Source: Amanita rubescens (lineage: Eukaryota; Basidiomycota; Agaricomycetes; Agaricales; Amanitaceae). Taken from it: a DNA stretch of 63,759 bases. This document shows, piece by piece, positions 32,886 to 56,654 of the stretch. The position numbers and the translations under genes were made by a program. Positions within the stretch are counted from its first letter, which is position 1. Each line of letters starts with the position of its first letter. The stretch spans positions 1-63,759 of the forward strand of contig WION01000297.1 in assembly GCA_015039365.1 (NCBI GenBank), given 5' to 3'. The notes under the pieces are model-generated. The model was given only the letters and a program-made list of their open reading frames with translations, made no database searches and was not told the origin of the DNA.

Positions 32886-34554
32886 CTACGAACGATTGTC
32901 TGGTAGCGCAATCGAGGCAGCTGGGGGACTTGACACGTTTATATTAGGGGCTGGCCCAATCAGCCGCAGCAACAACTCCATCCGTCGCTGCTGGTCAAGG
33001 ACTTGCTGTTTCAACTCGTCTTGTTCTTCCTTCATCCTGCGCTCTTTCTCGTCTTGTGCTTTCTTCATCCTGCGCTCTTTCTCGTCTTGTTCTTTCTTCA
33101 TCCTGCGCTCTTTCTCGTCTTGTTCTTCCTTCATCCTGCGTTCTTTCTCCTCTTGTTCTTTCTTCATCACGCGCTCTTTCTCTTCTTGTTCTTTCTTCAT
33201 CCTGCGCTCTTTCTCCTCTTGTTCTTTCCTTAGCTGACTCCTCAACCGCTGTTCATTCACCTCTTGCTCTTTCTTCAGCTCCTTCCTAAGCCGCCGTTCC
33301 CTCTCCTCCTGCTCCCTCCTGAGCCGTCGCTCTCTCTCCTCCTGATCCTTCTTCAACTGCTGCTCTTTCTCCTCCTGCTCCTTCCTCATTCGTCGCTCCC
33401 TCTCCTCCTGATCCTTCTTCATTTGACTCGTCAGCTGTCGTTCCCTATCGTCTTGCTCCTTGGAAAACCTTTTTCGAATTTCCTCTTTACTTCTCCACTC
33501 ATACTCCGCACGCTAGCGATCTCTGTCAACGCCGCGGAAAAGATGATACGAGAATTCGAACCTTTTCCTCCATCAAGCGCCTCCCCTTCATAAAATTGTC
33601 CCATATTCTCTGCACTTGATTTGGATCCCTCCGGTAAACTGGAAAGATTTTAAAGCTCCCCGTCGAAGCCTGGCGCCATTTCCTATCTCCTATTGTAGAA
33701 AGGGTGCCGTTATCATGCTCTTGAGCCCACATTTCCAGGGTCGCAAAAACGGTGTCTGCATGCCAGTAGCATTGACTGGCGAGTATCGAGTATATGTCAC
33801 TTTCATTATACAGGACGTCAACCAAGACCATGAGGTCGCAAAGGTTCGGACGCCGGGTAGGATCGCCACTGAGCGTAAGGGTTTTGAGAAGCAGAGCATT
33901 CTTCGGGTGGCTCTCTATTCTGGTTACGGCATCCGCTGCGAGGTGCTGTTGCAAACTAATGCCAGAAGAGCGAGGTAGGGAGCTCTGCGATAAGCGGTGT
34001 GTCTTGTGCTCGAGGGAAGCGGAACTTTTAGTCATGCGCGCCTTCAACGACGAAACGGATTTTGCTAATAGCGAACCACGGGGAGAACTGCGAGAGGAAC
34101 CGCCAGAAGAACCGATATGCGACTGGGCCACAGAAGATCGGGTAGCACTGGTACTCGCCGTCCCTGTCGACGACGGTACTGAGCTCATCGAATCGCTATC
34201 CTTGCGTTCGCCTGCTGATCGATCAAATCTCAGCTCTAGTTTGCCGTTCTCCTTGCTGGAGAACTCGCAGATAACGTATTCGTGCTCGTTCATGGTACCC
34301 TTCTCTTTGACATGATGCGCCTTGTCCAGTCGATAACCATTGAGTTCCTCCCATATCTCGACGCTTTCTGAATCCCAGGGTCGTATGCCCATATGGACGA
34401 GTCGGATCCACGACCTGACCGACATTTCTTCGCCAAGGGGAGGGAGGGATTTGGTACCGGCTGCGGTACCCAGAGAATTCATGATGGAAGCTGGGAGAAC
34501 GGACGACATGAGGGCACGGAGGCGCTTCCGCTTGTTCTTGAAGATAGGCGGCAT
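32886..34554 (-). CDS. Protein with long charged coiled coil, agaricomycete family
   Basis: Two exons (34554-33562 and 33512-32886) joined by a 49-nt intron, about 540 residues. The first half has a Ser-rich linker and then a conserved domain (RRPNLCDLMVLVDVLYNE, then CYWHADTVFATLEMWA) that I know from uncharacterised mushroom proteins. The second half is a nearly perfect coiled coil built of KEQEEKERRM-type units of 11-12 residues repeated about 15 times. The C-terminus LLLRLIGPAPNINVSS follows. The repeats also open long false frames on the opposite strand. Role unknown. Confidence 0.75.
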
Positions 34555-36144: not shown

Positions 36145-38394
36145 TTAAAGCTTACTCCTGACATTCTCCCGAGATATGCTTTTTTCATATCTTTCCTGTA
36201 ACTCCCTCCTCAAAACCTTTCCAGTTGGTGATTTAGGTATCTGCATCACAACGTCAATCCACCCACCAACCAAAGAACGAGCGAAACCACTTGCCTGTGT
36301 CACGACCTCGATGCCGCCTCTCAGCCACTTGTACTTGCTTAGATTCTCCCGCTGCCAACCGTCTAACGCGTTCACCACCTTGCCCGCGCCCAGATTCTTC
36401 CCCTCAGGACTAAGAACAATCCACGCTCTTGGAACCTTCTCGTCTGACGTGCGGCCTCCAGAAACACCCGCAACTGCGATATCTTGTATAAGCTTTTGCG
36501 GATGTGCAAGGAGCACGTTTTCGATTTCAACAGGGGAAACCTGAACTCCAGAAACTTTGAGGGTATCCTGATTTCGAAAGGTACTTTTAGACTTTGAAGA
36601 AGGAGAAAGGGAGACGGAGAGCGTACCTTTGCTCGATCTGCAAAACTGCGTAATATAAAAGTCCAATGGTCAGCCATTTTGCTCTAACCAAGGAAAAAAC
36701 GAACTCCTCACTAAAAATATCCGTCCTCGTCCACCCAAAATTTATCACCCGTCTTCAACCATCCATCGACGAACGTTTCTTTCGTCGCTTGCTCATTATT
36801 CCAGTACCCCAGGGCGACGTTGCCTCCTCTAAGCCACAAATTCCCAACTTGGTTTAGGACGGCGGGTGTCCCGTGGGGCGTTCCGCCGTCTTCCACGATT
36901 ATGCGTGCTTCCATCCCTGGTGTGAGGGTGCCTATCGTCCCACGTTTAGGTCTACCTTCTCCCGTGAGCACCTCGTTAACAGGTCGACGCAGCGCGCTTA
37001 AAGTCTGCGAAAGTAGACAAGGCGACTTAAGTAGGCGCGAAAATGTTGAAGGACGACGGACTTACGCATTCTGACATTCCGTAACCTAAGTACGTTGAGA
37101 GAGGAGTGTTGTCAATGATTAACGGCGAACGCACCTTCGTTAAACCTAGCTTGTACAGGAGTGAGAGCGGTCAGTTGGTCTTTAAGTTCTGGAGGGAGGT
37201 AGGCTGCGCCGCTGATTAGTTCAGCGACAGAGCTCAAATCTGTGCTTGAGGTCTTCGGGTCATGCACAAGTTGATGTACGATGGAAGGTACAAGTGTAAG
37301 ATGAGTTATTCTGTATCTGATTATATTTGTGTAAGTAACTCTGAGGTTGTGGCTATAGCGTGGAACGTACTTGGGAATAAGAGATAAAGCCATATCCAGG
37401 TCCCATGATGGCATAACGATCAGAGTCGCAGGTATCAGGAGCGATCTGAAGCAGTAGTAAAAGAGGCCATAGCAGTGGTGTATCGGGAGAAATGCTAGGC
37501 ATCGCGTCATGCCGTCCGGGGCCTTTTTCTAGGCCCAGTTAATTACAGGCCAGGCCTTGGTTGACCCAAAAATACTCACTGTGTAAATATTATTTGCCAA
37601 TGCAGCCTTCGCTACTATAATAAACTGATTAATAACAAAATTAATATTTCCATGTGATATCATCACGGCTTTCAACAAACGCGTCAGTAAATAGGGCCTA
37701 GGGTTTTATTTATAAGTACCTTTCGGCAAGCCGGTCGTGCCGCTGGAAAAGACAAGATACGCTAACGTATCTTTACGAGCGGGCCGCACCGGGATGATAT
37801 CAGCATTTCTCGTCCGCGTTTCGTCGATCAGCTGGGAAAAGCTCCGTCTGTTCGATAGTATGGGACTGGACAAGATAAATATTTTTTGGGGGGAGATCCC
37901 GAGTTCTTTCGCCACAGGAAGCAGGCTGGAGAGAAGTTTTTCATCGACGAAGAGGCAAGTTGCGTTTGATAACCTGAGTGCATTTTTGAGTTCAAAAGGT
38001 TTCGGGAGTGCTGAGATCAGAGCGAAAGGGGTGGTGATGTACAGGCAAGCGTGGATCAGGGTGATGTAGTCCTGTTCGTGCGCGACTAAGCTACGAGTTC
38101 CATGGAAAAATAACACTGATTGCTCACCAAGCAATTGTGACTTATAATTCCGACAATATCCCCATTTTCTGGGGAAAGTCCCAGCCCTCCTTGAGAGACT
38201 GGTGCTCCCAGAGCTGTAGCGGCGTATTGAACGCGTTCCGCAAATTCGTGGAATGTGCGTGTCTTTCCGGTCGGGGCGTCAATGTGAAGTGTGAAGTCGG
38301 GCCATTCCGCTTGGTCTGGTCGATGCAGGAGGGCGTAGTGGGCATTGGTTTCCGACAGAGGTGGAATTTCCGGATACACGGATTGGATATGCAT
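36145..38394 (-). CDS. AMP-dependent acyl-CoA ligase-like enzyme, copy 1
   Basis: Adenylate-forming enzyme (ANL superfamily; acyl-CoA or 4-coumarate:CoA ligase type). Pieces in order: MHIQSVYPEIPPL start, DYITLIHACLYI, YLVFSSGTTGLPKG (phosphate-binding A3 motif), VMISHGN, LAFLPIHHCYGLFYY, ELISGAAYLP, YGMSE (A5), GNLWLRGGNVALGYWN, WLKTGDKFW (A7 Asp), FADRAK, KVSGVQVSP (A8) and PKSPTGKVLRREL with the catalytic Lys (A10). About nine exons. The end ENVRSKL has no peroxisomal PTS1 (SKL appears as R-S-K-L, so PTS1 is actually possible). Substrate unknown. It stands head to head with a secreted-protein relic, the unit repeated to the right. Confidence 0.85.
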
Positions 38395-46036: not shown

Positions 46037-48280
46037 TCAAAGCTTACTCTTAACTTCCTTCTTCCACCCCAAACCTTTTTCATACTTGTCCTGCAACTCC
46101 CTCCTCAACACTTTCCCCATTGGCGATTTAGGTATCTGGATCAACGTCTTCCGTCGTCGAACAATAAAAGCGAGCTAAAGCAGCCACATACCTCTTTCAC
46201 AACCTCGAATCCACCTCTTAGCCACTTGTACTTGCTTAAATTCTGTTGCTGCCAATCATCCAATGCCTTCACCACCTTACTCGCGCCGAACTTCTTCCCC
46301 TCTGGACTAAGAACAACCCACGCTCTGGGAACCTTCTCGTCGGACGTGCGGCCTCCAGAAACGCCCGCGACTGTCACATCTAGGATGAGCTTTTGCGGAT
46401 GTGCGAGGAGCACTTCTTCGATTTCGAGGGGGGAAACTTGGGCTCCAGAAACTTTGAGAGTATCCTGTTTCAAACGGTGCATCCAATTAACAGTCGACAG
46501 AAGAAAGGGGAATAAAGCGTATGTACCTTTGCTCGATCTGCGAAACTGCAAGTTGCGTAATCGATGTTGCCAGTCAGCATTTCGCAAGAAGAAAAAAGGA
46601 CTGCTTACTAGAAATACCCATCTTCGTCCGCCCAGAACTTGTCCCCCGTCTTAAGCCACCCATCGATGAAGGTTTCTCTTGTCGCTTGCTCGTTATTCCA
46701 GTAACCTAGGGCGATGTTGTCTCCCTTGAGCCACAAATTTCCAACTTGATTTGGGCCGGCGAGCGTCCCGTCGGGTGTTCCGTCGTCTTCGAGAATGATG
46801 CGAGCTTCCATCCCTGGCGCTAGGGTACCTAAACTCCCGCGTTTACTTTTGCCATCTGGGGTGATTGCATCATTGAAAGGTTGGTAGATGGCGGTTAAAG
46901 TCTGGGTACAAAAAGTGGGTTTTGGGGGTTTTACGAAGAATGACGGTACTTACGGATTCTGACATTCCGTAACCTGAGGGGGGTACGTTGAAACAAGAGG
47001 GTTTTGTCATTGGTTGACAGGAAACGCACCTTCGGCAAACCTAACTTTGGCAGGAGATAGAGCGGTAAGTTTATCTTTTAGTTCTGGAGAAAGATAGGCT
47101 GCGCCGCTGTTCAACGCTACGACAGAGCTTAAATCTGTCTTGGCTGTCTTTGGATGATGTACAAGTTGGTGTACGGTTGAAGGTATGAGTGTTAAGGTTG
47201 TTATTTTATATCTAATTGTACGTGATCAAGTTGCTTTCTAACGCGTTGTACGATGGAACGTACTTGGGTATGAGATCTAGAGCATGGTCCAGGTTCCATG
47301 ATGGTACGATGACCAACGTCATGGGCGACAGGACGCATCTGAAGCAATAGGTGAAGAGACCATAGGAGTGGTTCATCGGGAGGCAAGCTAGGTGCCGGGA
47401 GAGGCCATCCGGCGTTGGTAACTTCGGTGGCTGTCCCTCGTTAATCACGAATCTTGTGCTTGACGAAAGGGTACTTACTGGCATCGACTGCATCGCGGCC
47501 TTTAGTAGGATTAAAAATTGGCGAATGGCGAAAATAAGATTTCCGTGTGATATCATGACAGCTTTTGGACCTTGTAAGCGAAGTCGATCGTTTATTTCAA
47601 GTACGGTACCTTTTGGCAAGCCGGTGGTTCCGCTGGAGAAAACGAGGTACGCTAATGTATCCCTGCGCACGGACCGAACTGGAATGACTTCAGGTTTTTT
47701 GATCTGCATTTCGTCGACGAGCCGGGAAAAGCACTGTCGGCCTGATACGAGGCCTGACATGATGAGTATCTTTTTGGAGGAAATTCCGAGTTCTCTTGCG
47801 ATAGGCAGCACTGTGGAGAGGAGGTTTTCATCGACGAAAAGCCAATTTGCTTTCGAAAGCTTTAGCGAATGTTTGAGTTCAAAAGGTTTCGATAACGCCG
47901 ATATAAGAGCGAAAGGGGTTGCGATGTAAAGGCATGAATGGACAAAGGTTACATAGTCCTGGTGTTACGCAGCTAAGAGAGGTACGATAAGGGAAACGAC
48001 GATAATTGCTCACCATGCAGTTGTAGCTCATAATCCCTATAATGTCCCCATTCTCTGCAGAGAGTCCTAACCCACCTTGAGAGACGGGTGCTCCTAAAAC
48101 TGTGGCGGCATACTGAACGCGTTCCGAATATTCACGGAATGTACGCGTTTTACCGGTATTGGCATCGATGTGGATGGTAAAGTCGGGCCATTCAGCTTGG
48201 TCTGGGCGGCGTAGGAGGGTATAATAAGCATTGGTAACGGTTAGTGGGGGAACTTCGGTGTGTATGGACTTGATGTGCAT
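46037..48280 (-). CDS. AMP-dependent acyl-CoA ligase-like enzyme, copy 2
   Basis: Paralogue of 36145-38394 with the same exon layout. MHIKSIHTEVPPL start, YLVFSSGTTGLPKG (A3), VMISHGN, LACLPMNHSYGLFTY, ALNSGAAYLSPEL, GNLWLKGDNIALGYWN, WLKTGDKFWADEDGYF (A7), KVSGAQVSPLEIEEVL (A8) and PKSPMGKVLRRELQDKYEK with the catalytic Lys. It ends EVKSKL, a possible SKL peroxisomal signal. Substrate unknown. It stands divergent from the RhoGAP gene, about 480 bp apart. Confidence 0.85.
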
Positions 48281-51908: not shown

Positions 51909-54900
51909 TCAAATATGAATAATTTGATCATATAGGAAAGAAATCAATTTCCGATGATTGGAGGGCATAGAGCCAGATGTAATTTGGTTCTTCAGTTTCT
52001 TCACATAGTCTTGCTGCTCAAACTGGTACAAAGCATCTGAGACAGTTTTGTCAAATCGCTTTGCTATGGAAAATGATAGCTTGCAAATTATAATAATTGC
52101 TTTGATACATTAGCCAGGTAAATGAATGAAATATGAACTGTTACCAGCTAATATTTGGCAAGCTGAAGGCTAGCATAGCATTAGCTTTAATTGAGCATCA
52201 TTGAAACAAACATAATTATTACTGTTACTGAGAATTTGGTAGATTTGCTTTCAATTCCATTTTGGAACAAAGAAAACAGCTCTTCCTGATAACAAGCAGC
52301 AATAAGACTCTGAAGTACATTTCACAAGTCACCTACAGTCTTGCACATAATTTATAAATTAGCATGTCTATTGCTATCTTGTTCAGTCACATTACTCACC
52401 TGAGAAAATTGTAAAATCCATAAGGTAGTAGTGTTGGAGAAGTGAAAGCAGCATCATACCAACTGGTAGTTAAATCAGAAAATTTTACAAAGGAGTGTTG
52501 CACACTGGCTCACTCTCTGAACAGAGTCATTGATAATGTTGGATGTCTGAGAAATATATTATCACTCACTTCCTGTAGGCCATGAGACAAGATGTGATGA
52601 AGACGGTGGCATCACTCACCAGCTAAGGATCATGGGCAAGATGTGATCCAGTTGCCTTCGGAAAGGAGAGCAAGGGTAATGTCACTCACACGCTGTTGGC
52701 CATGGGATTAGAAGCAAGGAAATAGAAAGTTGATGAGGTATCACTGACTCCCTGTTGGTCATGGAATAAGACATATTGAGACTGTCTGGAAAGTGCATTG
52801 TCACTCACATACTGTTGGTCATGGAGTGAGGCAAGTTGTGATTGTTTAAGAGACAATAGTGAAGTGTCTCACATGCTGTTGGTCATGGTAATGAGATGTG
52901 CTGGCAAGAAAAAGACAGTACATTGCTACTCACATCCTATTGGGCATGAGATGAGATTTGTTTAGTACTTGATGTCATGTCATTCACTTTCTGTTTTTTG
53001 TGATATCAGATGTTGTGAAATAACCTGGTCAAGGATGGTACAAACTCACATCCTATGGGTGATGCCTGAGACTGCTGCTCAAAATAGTGCAATGTCACTT
53101 ACCATCTTTTGGACATGGTAAGGTGTGGAAAGGTTATCAACAGTGTCACTCACATACTGTTGGTTGTGGATGAGAGTGTAGTGAGAGTGTCTGGCAAAAG
53201 AAAGTACAGTGTCCCTCACATACTAGTGATCAGGGGGTGAGACATGATGAGACTATTGGAAAAAAGAGGATGTCACTGACATTCTGTTGGTCATGGAATG
53301 AGACATGTAGACATTGCCTGTAAAGAGACAGTGGTGTATTGCTTACTTCCTGTTGGTCATGCATGGTATGAGACATGTAGATCTTGCCTCTCAAACAACA
53401 GTTGGGATATCACTCACAAGCTATTGATCATGGTAGGAGATATTGTGAGGCTGCATGGAAGAGACAATGTCACTCACCCCCATTTTGTCCTTGGGGAAGA
53501 TTTGTAGGGGCTGCTTGCCAAAATACTGCAGTATCACTCACTCGAATCTGTTTATTGTGTGAGATGTGTTAAAGAGCTGGAAGACAGTGAAATGTCACTC
53601 ACTTTCTATTTATTGTAAGATGACATGTGTTATTAGAAACTGGGCAGTGTCACTTACAATCTATTGGCCATGGTATGAGATACACTGAGGCCTGCATGGA
53701 AAAAGACAGTGCAGTATTACTCACCCCCTGGTCATGGCATAAGGCTTCCTGAAGGAGAGGATGCATTGTCACTCACCCCCTGTTTGCCATGGAATTTGAA
53801 GATGCATTGAGACTACCAGAAAAGATAGCAGTGTTGCTCACAACCTGTTTATCATAATATTTGAAACTGCTGACAATAGACAGTGCAATGCCACCTACTG
53901 TCTAGCATTTGGCATAAGATGAAGTGTGTCATAACTACCCAGAGACAGTACAGTGTCACTCACAACCTGTTAGCCATGGTATGAGATGTACTGAGGCATT
54001 CATGGAAAATGACAGTGTAGCATCACTCACTCCCTATCAGTCATAGTAGATGAGACATGATAAGAATGAGATGTTAGCATCGTTTACATGCTATTATTAA
54101 TGGCATGTTGAAAAGATTGTGAGAAAACAGGCAATGCAGCATCACTCACTCTCTGTGTGGAGATGTTATTGGGCTGCCTAAAAAATACATTGGATTGTCA
54201 CTCACTTGCTGTTAGTCATTTGATGAGATGTGCTGAGACTGCCTGAAGAAAGACTACAGGGCTACTTACCTGAATCTAGTATAAGATGTATTGAGACAGA
54301 TTGGTAAAGGACAGTACAGTATCACTCACATTCTGTTAGTTCAAACCAGGCATAAGGAGATTGTCTAGTAAAGTACAGTGCATAGCCACATACTGCCTTT
54401 TGGTCATAGTCAAAATGTTCAATCTTGCTAGGCAACAGACAGTATGGTGTTGCTCACTTTCTGATGCTCATTGGATCATGGGATGAAATGACATGCCAAG
54501 GTTACTAGTGGAAAGAGGTGGTGGTGTGTCACTCACTTCCTGTTGATTGTGGCACAGGGATGAGATGAGATAGTTTCCAAGACAAGATTATCCTACTCAC
54601 AACCTGTAGATTGTGATATTATAGGACTGGTGGTCAGAAGCCAATGCCTTGTTGCTCACAGCCTATCATTGGTCAAGGGATAGGATTGCAATGAGACTGC
54701 TGGAAAAAGTTATCACATCTTCACTCACAAACTAATAGTCATAGGACAAAATCTGTGACAAAACATGAGAGTGCCACTCACATCCTATTATTTATAGAAT
54801 AAAGAATAATTAGAATGTTCTGGCAGAAGAAGTGTAGTAGTATGATTTACCCTCTATTGGTCATGGGAGAAGCAGTGATATGACTGCTATACATAGACAA

Positions 54901-55175
54901 GTGTAACATTACCCACATTCTGTTGGATGTGTAGTGCAATGTCATGGACTGTCTGAGAAGAAAATGCATAAAATGTCACTCACATCCTGCTGGTCATTGG
55001 ATCACAGCTCATTAAAATCAAAACAATACTACTTGCCCACATCTGAGTCTATCCATAACTTTAGATTCAGTAGCAGAAATATTTTTATCCTTACAAGTGT
55101 GTTGATCTTTTGAAACAGAGATGATCATCAAAACTCATCCACAAGAGGTACTCGGGTTATGCCACATACATCATC
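51909..55175 (-). CDS. Micro-exon gene: about 46 exons, 41 of them a single codon
   Basis: From high to low coordinates: exons GATGAT (55175-55170), 12 nt (55106-55095) and 10 nt (55042-55033). Then single-codon exons from 54986-54984 (GAT), 54919-54917 (AAT), 54853-54851 (AGG) and so on to 52516-52514 (AGA), 52462-52460 (TTG) and 52339-52337 (ACT). Within this run are 6-nt exons at 54275-54270 and 53547-53542 and a 12-nt exon at 53489-53478. Then come 63 nt (52285-52223), CTG (52147-52145) and a 150-nt last exon (52058-51909). Introns are 47-76 nt, with GTGAGTGA-type donors and CATGACCAACAG-type acceptors. The joined frame stays open, for example DNRDFAVEKYNI early in the array; the terminal exon has KLKNQITSGS. 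No known domain. The exon model is inferred from splice-site pattern and from the paralogue at 136-744. Confidence 0.6.
52460..55042 (-). repeat. Array of related introns spaced by 3 nt
   Basis: About 43 tandem, degenerate units of 50-79 bases. The conserved parts of each unit are its ends: an acceptor-like tail (C/T AACAG or AATAG, preceded by CATGACC or similar) and a donor-like head (GTGAGTGACA, or variants GTAAGT, GTAGGT, GTGGGT). The three bases between tail and head differ from unit to unit. The unit interiors share AGTCTCA and CATCTCAT patches, so the introns look related by descent. Most CpG sites have been lost. Confidence 0.8.
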
Positions 55176-55417
55176 CTATTTAAGCAATTCAATTGGGTAA
55201 ACATTTGGTGATCAAATTCTTTGCATGAAAACCTACTATTGTACACTATTCACAAGTTAGCTTTTGACATCAGCACTAAACCATTGTTACTATACCCAGT
55301 AATGTGGAAACCTGCTGGCAACAATAAAAGCAACATCTAAGAATGTAAGTTTAATCTTTGAATTCAAGGTACATCTGGAGTCTGTCAAAGCTGGAAGTGG
55401 GAACATCCAAGTAAATC

Positions 55418-56654
55418 TCACTGAAGTGCAGCTTTGACACAAAGATCAAGGTTGTTCCTTTGTGTTGAAATGAACACCTCTTGTAAACTAGCATCATCAA
55501 TTGAATTTGCAGTTTGCTCTGTCAATTCAGGGCAGTTTTTCTCTGCAATGTGCATGTCTGTTGAAACAAATGTATCATATAAAAAAACAGACAGCATATA
55601 TGTCATGATGTCCTACCTTCCAGTTTCACATATGCTTTTGGAGGATAGTTAGCTTTCAAGACTTTAGAGAGATAAATTTCCTTGAATGTATTTTCAGCAT
55701 TTTCTCTGGCCTTGTTCCATCTGTGACTTTGGTCTTCTATATCATTCATTTTGACATATTCCTGGATTATTTGGGCATCAAATTTGGTGAATATAGTTAT
55801 CAAAGGGACTGTGGAGGAAGTATTGGGTGGGGTGCACAAAAAGCCAAACTTAATTTTGCAAGTGCCTTACCATTCCCTGTTCCATTGGTAAAGAACTCAA
55901 GCTCTGCAGATAGAAGAGGACGTGAGCCCTCCATGGGAATGCAATACCTGCAAAATCCTGCATCAGATGTCCATCTATACATATGATTAATACAAGGATA
56001 CCAAATTGCATGCAATTGGTCCTTCAACTTAGGTGCAGCAGATCTCTTCTGAATGAAATTCTGAACAATTTCCATTTCCCCACTTGCACCAGCTTCAAAG
56101 CCCTGAGAATCATGAAAGATGAAGTTGCTTCCAGAGTATGTAATCTGGTGTTCAATGTCATGTATCCCTCTCTGAAATGTGTAGCACATCAAAGACTGAA
56201 GCTCCCATTTTGTACTAAGCACCATTTACTTACTTCAATTGATGGTGATAAAGGCATATATGCAGATGCCACATTTGCAGATGCTGCTGGTGGTGCTTTC
56301 TTCCCCAAAATGTGCATAACTTTGGCAAAAAGTGTCCTCTTAGGCTCAAACTTGTGCTCAAAATCAAATAGAATGCCATCCTCATCATAGATGATGGGTT
56401 TGGTTCCCTGAGCTACACCACAGACCTTCTCAAGAATGGTGGTCTTGCCAGCATTGGCCCTTCCTACAATAAGAATACGGAAGTGGGGGCAATGGTATCG
56501 CTCCTTGAGGATTTTAACATGTTCTGCATCTGCTTGAAAGTCAAATTAAGAGTTGGGACATAAATTTTGCCTTACCTGGTGTATCCATGCCAAAATTTGA
56601 TCCGGTGTCCATCATATCAACACTTGATGTGTCCAAATTGGTGATGTCTGCCAT
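55418..56654 (-). CDS. P-loop GTPase-like protein of the agaricomycete G-domain family
   Basis: Five exons: 56654-56576, 56532-56234, 56171-55871, 55808-55617 and 55557-55418, giving 336 residues in perfect frame. The Walker A motif is GRANAGKTTILEKVCG (IVGRANAGKTT). A DSQGFEAG motif stands at the G3 position (D-x-x-G). TIFTKFD provides a TKxD-type G4 motif. The family is large and lineage-specific in mushrooms, with unknown roles. The whole gene lies in the CpG-poor block. Its stop (TGA, 55418-55420) overlaps a good donor (CTTCA|GTGAGA, intron from 55421). Splicing there leaves phase 2, which the 10-nt exon at 55042-55033 converts to phase 0, so this may be the N-terminus of the micro-exon gene. 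Confidence 0.82.

Follow-up and report, generated by a model that had tools for sequence, protein, structure and literature searches.

The DNA analyzed here (the window) is contig WION01000297.1 of the Amanita rubescens assembly GCA_015039365.1, 63,759 nucleotides (nt) in length. On its minus strand it carries a gene for a P-loop GTPase in which the exons for the GTPase part and those for a conserved C-terminus appear to be separated by an array of exons that mostly consist of a single codon. The parts of this gene were assigned as follows; "cDNA-like" refers to intron-free sequences that resemble complementary DNAs (cDNAs) and are treated below.

55422..56654, minus strand: GTPase exons upstream of exon 6, start codon at 56654, motifs GRANAGKT and TKFD (frames, spliced alignment to the cDNA-like P0036, Pfam)
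55296..55374, minus strand: exon 6, 79 nt, ending with ..RFPHYW in phase 0, donor GTATAG (homologous exons in loci L016, L018 and L024 and in cDNA-like proteins)
52514..54986, minus strand: predicted micro-exon array, 41 exons (38 of 3 nt, two of 6 nt, one of 12 nt), introns of 47-76 nt (frame-blind splice-site chain, shuffle control)
54270..54275, minus strand: 6-nt exon ATTCAG in the array (splice-site chain)
53542..53547, minus strand: 6-nt exon ATTCGA in the array, GTTCAA in paralog L011 (splice-site chain, comparison with L011)
53478..53489, minus strand: 12-nt exon GACAAAATGGGG in the array, with a weak acceptor (score -11.1; splice-site chain)
52460..52462, minus strand: 3-nt exon TTG after the chain, its acceptor being the last of the chain (by eye)
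52399..52400, minus strand: abutting AG|GT, a zero-length exon, possibly a ratchet site or a unit without its codon (by eye)
52337..52339, minus strand: 3-nt exon ACT with the weak acceptor CAAG (by eye)
52223..52285, minus strand: 63-nt exon EELFSLFQNGIESKSTKFSVT (matches ..PELFSVFGEHSTFFSAT of the cDNA-like P0025)
52145..52169, minus strand: 25-nt exon PSACQILA, entered in phase 0 and left in phase 1 (matches ATACQVLA in P0025 and PTACQVLI in P0121)
51909..52101, minus strand: 193-nt tail exon AIIIICKLSFSIAKRFDKTVSDALYQFEQ...IIHI* (spliced alignment, frame, homologous tail exons in the assembly)

The last GTPase exon upstream of exon 6 ends with ..GCA CTT CA|GTGAG, and an apparent TGA at this place falls within the donor site. 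Homologues of exon 6 end with ..SKFPHYW or ..SKFPHFW in L016, L018 and L024 and are also present in the cDNA-like proteins; as exon 6 ends in phase 0, the array is placed in frame. A first, sequence-only reading of the window had let the codons run on in the same phase into two conserved exons of 63 and 150 nt. The 63-nt exon is indeed matched by cDNA-like proteins, while the supposed 150-nt exon is rather a 25-nt exon followed by the 193-nt tail exon.

Between 55175 and 51909 the minus strand contains 56 raw matches to AG-NNN-GT. Weight matrices for donor and acceptor sites were trained on 387 distinct units, and the best donor/acceptor pairs were chained into introns with no constraint on frame or on the length of exons. 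All training units, the window's own included, had the form AG-NNN-GT, so that the matrices favour such sites, and information on the exon itself is absent from them. The resulting chain comprises 42 introns of 47-76 nt (55040-52463) and 41 exons between 54986 and 52514, namely 38 of 3 nt, two of 6 nt and one of 12 nt, with no stop codon when joined. A stricter threshold leaves 38 introns; of the 37 exons then chained, 34 are 3 nt long and 36 have lengths that are multiples of three. Thirty dinucleotide shuffles of the same stretch yielded 1.9 introns on average (maximum five, or one at the stricter threshold) and not a single 3-nt exon, and the plus strand yielded one intron. Downstream of the chain, two more 3-nt exons, TTG and ACT, are readable by eye, which brings their number to 40. 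The sequence-only reading had counted 41; the array of 3-nt exons, the recurrence of AG-NNN-GT at intron-sized spacing, the exceptions of 6, 6 and 12 nt and the absence of stops were all found as it had described them. At the expected stop rate about one in ten arrays of this kind would be free of stops by chance. The codons of the window alone are no proof of coding, and the weight rests on the family to which the gene belongs.

The assembly comprises 75.7 Mb and contains duplicate copies; the window is contig C220 in our numbering and its array stretch is found with 100% identity on C31. Duplicate contigs included, the strict pattern CAACAGNNNGTGAGTGA occurs 1087 + 1090 times, i.e. in 2,177 strict units, as compared to 1 + 1 for the reversed control. 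In 19 loci chosen by their similarity to the array (L010-L028, two near-duplicates among them), a GTPase is situated upstream in all 19 and the tail exon downstream in 17; it was not seen for L025 and L026, whose examined stretch may stop short. Homologous tail exons number at least 150 in the assembly, again with duplicates, and six of them were hand-picked from the tail-exon list for a sample independent of the array. The DNA upstream of all six carries arrays, with a total of 269 exons, 259 of them 3 nt long and 267 multiples of three, and none of the 259 codons is a stop; block-shuffled controls gave 1-2 introns. GTPase exons, array and conserved C-terminal exons are the common plan of the family. 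The strict pattern matches 112 of these 259 micro-exons, and extrapolation leads to about 5,000 3-nt exons in the redundant assembly.

Some loci deserve separate mention. L014 has 75 exons of 3 nt, and L030 (G000:C3:127400-136900) contains 101 chained 3-nt exons with K/Q/E-rich codon strings in 9.5 kb, apparently in two genes. The codons of L015 (G000:C13:579000-587000) are mostly CAA, CTA or CGA and vary mainly at the middle base. Units resembling GC donors (AGA|GCAAGT, AAA|GCAAGT) are found within the array of L048 (G000:C650:814250-816700). Long open frames of 402 and 456 amino acids beside the array genes in L025 and L027, respectively, resemble what we take to be retroelement proteins.

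Across 18 non-redundant arrays (the near-duplicates L012 and L020 were dropped) none of 671 codons is a stop, versus 41.2 expected from the base composition at the three positions. The units are related and the 671 codons are thus not independent trials; counted as array-by-codon types there are 249, all of them sense. In the two shifted frames, 4 and 73 of 653 triplets are stops. Most amino acids are represented mainly by one codon, as exemplified by GAA (86/89), GGA (69/75), TTT (52/53) and CAA (48/49), while leucine (CTT 42 and CTA 13 of 64) and arginine (CGA 71 and AGA 15 of 95) use more. The third base is A or T in 93% of the array codons versus 63% of the 253 codons in the window gene's ordinary exons. 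Triplets ending with TA (15 versus 89.9 expected) or GT (14 versus 72.8 expected) are rare; at the junction they would give rise to TAG or to a false GT. Avoidance of cryptic sites was discarded as the sole cause of this codon alphabet, since NTA and NGT fit and NCA, with 28 versus 21.9 expected, does not. A helical periodicity of the codon strings was likewise dropped: p was below 0.05, uncorrected, only for L031 (0.027) and L015 (0.015) among 14 strings.

Base changes concentrate in the codons. In L014, roughly 70 units share nearly identical 62-nt introns and carry codons such as GAT, CGA, TTT, GAA, TAT, CAA, TCC and ATG. In the nine arrays with enough 65-nt units (three others have too few), diversity per column is 6-85 fold higher for exon than for intron bases, and the minimum number of changes per site, which is not inflated by duplication, is 3-83 fold higher in exons in eight arrays. 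When the window is compared with its paralog L011, 175 of 186 donor, 158 of 179 acceptor, 1507 of 1858 intron-middle and 76 of 99 exon bases are identical. Donors are conserved and acceptors less so (p=0.019 for the acceptors); for donors versus intron middles p is 1.5e-6, and for exons versus middles 0.29. Among the 17 exons that differ between the two paralogs, 16 change the amino acid and one (AGG/AGA) is silent. The near-duplicates L017 and L020 differ at 147 intron and 47 exon positions, a count that was not used because their alignment contains a mid-array indel.

Further information on the joining of codons comes from the 32 proteins that were read. The intron-free ones sit on contigs of 1.1-1.9 kb with the source "jgi" and probably stem from other Amanita. 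As the genomic copies carry several introns in the GTPase part alone, these sequences are probably cDNAs, with the caveat that they may be processed retrocopies. In P0020, P0025, P0029, P0085, P0121 and P0122 the GTPase (P0121 and P0122 begin in its middle) leads via ..KFPHYW into 53-79 variable residues and then into the conserved tail. P0025 and P0029 agree in 257 of their first 260 residues and in 88 of the last 95, and share little in the array part. At the beginning of the array, P0095 reads FPHFW-VGRDE-MANKQLSEAQ-WFEHGKKD.. and P0046 reads FPHLW-VDRA-VTNEQLSETK-WFEKGKKE... The corresponding string of A. rubescens L016 is distributed over exon 6, a 12-nt exon, the 3-nt exon GTG, a 30-nt exon and then seven one-codon exons, TGG, TTT, GAA, CAA, GGA, AAA and AAA, corresponding to W-F-E-x-G-K-K of both proteins. 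Such codons are thus joined in the intron-free sequences. When the codon string of the best array was shuffled, none of 300 shuffles reached the score of P0095 or P0046 (z 6.8 and 5.0, respectively, each for the best of 18 arrays). Individual residues were also mapped to exons by spliced alignment (identical residues: P0095-L016 11/15, P0095-L023 8/11, P0046-L015 12/17, P0020-L022 17/25, P0025-L024 2/6); exons may be skipped and codons split by the aligner, and these counts come without a control, so only the unskipped leader is used as evidence. P0036 and P0046 seem to end in a retained intron within or after the array, which hints at incomplete splicing and is not evidence of isoforms. The four A. 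rubescens gene models that were read stop with the GTPase (P0001), stop soon after exon 6 (P0013, P0028) or skip the array (P0090).

The window gene contains GRANAGKTT and FTKFDAQ, which we take to be the GxxxxGKT and TKxD motifs and which identify the product as a TRAFAC-like P-loop GTPase. Over 48 proteins, G53, K54, T55, K184 and D186 (P0020 numbering) are at least 90% conserved. In Pfam, the window GTPase reaches 21.4 bits with MMR_HSR1, just below the cut-off of 21.9, and a profile search of solved structures returned only generic GTPases with E values of 0.003 or worse. Pfam scans of the window GTPase, two tails and six cDNA-like proteins gave only sub-threshold matches, mostly to generic GTPase/P-loop families (none for P0121 and P0122), and no match to NACHT, NB-ARC, ankyrin or the profile of immunity-related GTPases (IRGs). 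The predicted fold consists of a GTPase and a helical domain, can be aligned over model residues 26-418 with Irga6 at about 10% identity and a root-mean-square deviation of about 7, and resembles that of immunity-related and dynamin-like GTPases; the array part is modelled as a disordered loop. Where the fold searches listed no further family, this is not taken as a sign of absence.

Taken together, we consider it likely that the array is a coding stretch from which more than 40 tiny introns are removed and whose one-codon exons are joined to form a loop, hypervariable and probably exposed, in a GTPase with a predicted role in non-self recognition. The stop-free codon strings of the tested arrays and the joining of such codons in intron-free sequences are observed; full-length splicing of this kind in A. 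rubescens itself, binding of a partner by the loop and a mode of action like that of immunity-related or dynamin-like GTPases are inferred. The protein would help the fungus in telling self from non-self.

This interpretation has weak points. In the window, the first exons, from 55295 to 55040, have no settled reading, and the AG|GT at 52400/52399 leaves an exon of zero length. Among 797 chained exons, 27 are not multiples of three. L015 accounts for five of these, three of 2 nt and two of 4 nt, and ends out of frame when its exons are read in order; the other 22 measure 8-59 nt, several at the same leader place of sister arrays, at which the chain missed small exons or joined them. In the shuffling control, the array parts of five other proteins were equalled in 0 (P0029, z 3.5), 2 (P0025), 4 (P0020), 4 (P0121) and 16 (P0054) of 300 trials, which is not convincing after the choice of the best of 18 arrays; a hypervariable stretch need not match. 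Further, exon 6 can be joined to the 63-nt exon in frame when all micro-exons are left out, the annotation of P0090, a gene model, joins the gene in this way, and the near-identical introns of many arrays look as they would after recent tandem duplication. The arrays could accordingly be spliced mostly as one large intron, the micro-exons being skipped as tolerated tandem intron duplications and the working protein consisting of GTPase and tail. We regard this as improbable because 0/671 stops and 267/269 frame-neutral exons point to translation of the codons, six intron-free proteins have 53-79 variable residues at this very place and two further ones share the conserved leader W-F-E-x-G-K-K. 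The same findings support what the sequence-only reading had proposed, one codon per exon in one phase between conserved flanks.

Still less probable is a targeted mutator, hypermutation or templated copying, that acts on the exon triplet in place of ordinary mutation, recombination and selection. It would fit the excess of minimum changes in exons in the eight arrays as well as replacements of whole triplets between the window and L011, e.g. TTT to CAA; an unselected mutator would, however, leave synonyms and stops where stops are absent and amino acids mostly have a single codon, and whole-triplet changes are explained by the shuffling of units. That the arrays are a non-coding minisatellite or introner-like repeats with AG-NNN-GT as an accident of unit ends, as tandem 65-nt units, nearly identical introns and arrays matching one another at many places in the genome might suggest, is very hard to reconcile with changes that concentrate in three exon bases without producing a stop in 671 codons, the same two coding parts flanking the tested loci (19/19 upstream, 17/19 downstream; six of six) and donors conserved between paralogs.

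As read from the sequence, the GTPase exons are followed by exon 6, which ends in phase 0, by the one-codon exons with introns of fungal type between them, and by conserved C-terminal exons entered in phase 0. In most of the introns the donor is GTGAGTGA-like and the tail from branch to AG is short. With only 3 nt between neighbouring introns, there would hardly be room for two adjacent spliceosomes, and the introns would presumably be removed sequentially. Introns this short are generally thought to be recognized by intron definition in fungi, and the challenge to exon definition that had been seen in the array is weaker than claimed. Since almost all micro-exons are whole codons in phase 0, their inclusion, skipping, duplication or loss would spare the frame. 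Units may duplicate and recombine, as the near-identical introns within arrays suggest, with residue-changing codons being kept; each gene copy would thereby have its own peptide, and exon skipping could add isoforms. Tentatively, and with clearly less confidence, one may go further and imagine an adaptive-like repertoire in which thousands of one-codon exons in dozens of immune-type GTPase genes give rise to very many loop peptides per nucleus through combinatorial splicing; the arrays would evolve by unit shuffling under strong selection for new amino acids, with a restricted, largely splice-safe codon alphabet that avoids false donors and TAG acceptors.

The sequence-only reading knew of no described array with one codon per exon. 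Excerpts from four papers citing Iotti et al. 2012 do refer to such exons: NACHT-ANK (nank) genes of Tuber melanosporum contain multiple to dozens of 3-bp, codon-sized exons that are alternatively spliced (PMC4986451, PMC3689799, PMC10197012, PMC9815663). Because of this precedent codon-sized exon arrays are not categorically new. As far as these excerpts go, both systems feature dozens of 3-bp exons in an expanded family of an ectomycorrhizal fungus in which the recognition part of a putative non-self receptor is diversified. Tuber is an ascomycete and nank proteins combine NACHT with ankyrin repeats, whereas A. rubescens is a basidiomycete and its GTPase matches neither. Hypervariable codons between near-identical introns are documented here for A. 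rubescens; nank enters this comparison through citing papers. New in A. rubescens are the other phylum and protein family and the absence of the array from the public gene models that were read. No paper linking micro-exons to Amanita or this GTPase family was found among the matches listed in the open-licence PMC literature, and a 2026 review of non-canonical splicing (PMC13149111) mentions neither fungi nor tuber.

According to excerpts from one paper (PMC10526429), the MEG genes of Schistosoma are rich in tiny exons, which are for the most part frame-neutral and are discussed as a means of varying the protein. These short exons number 10-20 and measure 6-81 bp (the abstract gives 3-81), mostly 15; the introns range from 100 to nearly 5000 bp, and the products are secreted. 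Measured against these, the A. rubescens exons are mostly 3 nt and the introns 47-76 nt long; MEG genes do not have one codon per exon. Fungal NLR (STAND) receptors, again as excerpted, are hypervariable with homogenized repeats and variable positions (PMC9815663). They share with the A. rubescens genes the large family, the variable recognition part and homogenized repeats with variable positions; in A. rubescens the variation resides in separate exons, and the scanned proteins match neither NACHT nor NB-ARC. The likeness to IRGs (Irga6, Irgb10, Irgb6 and GM4951, which we take to be a relative of these three) and bacterial dynamin-like proteins lies in the predicted fold of GTPase and helical domain; the low identity, the large deviation and the lack of an IRG profile match are points of difference. 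In vertebrate IRGs, neither a loop of this kind nor an exon array is known to us.

If our interpretation is correct, codon-sized exon arrays occur in the two large phyla of fungi and in protein families that differ between them, in each case with a link to likely non-self recognition in an ectomycorrhizal fungus. The A. rubescens family would offer a genome-scale test bed for how the spliceosome copes with exons that are smaller than the footprint of its parts and in which order neighbouring introns are removed, as well as for receptor diversification residue by residue with the frame intact. Public gene models of the family are suggested to miss their most variable part.

Elsewhere in the window, a second copy of the tail region is present at the other end of the contig (301-740, plus strand) with 77% DNA identity to the 3' part of the window gene. 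An open frame on the minus strand (32886-33512) contains 33-nt tandem repeats that encode an E/K/R-rich coiled-coil-like repeat. Two similar genes on the same strand (36145-38278 and 46141-47964), apparently duplicates, encode presumed AMP-binding (acyl-CoA synthetase-like) proteins, a name we assign from the motif SSGTTGLPKG.
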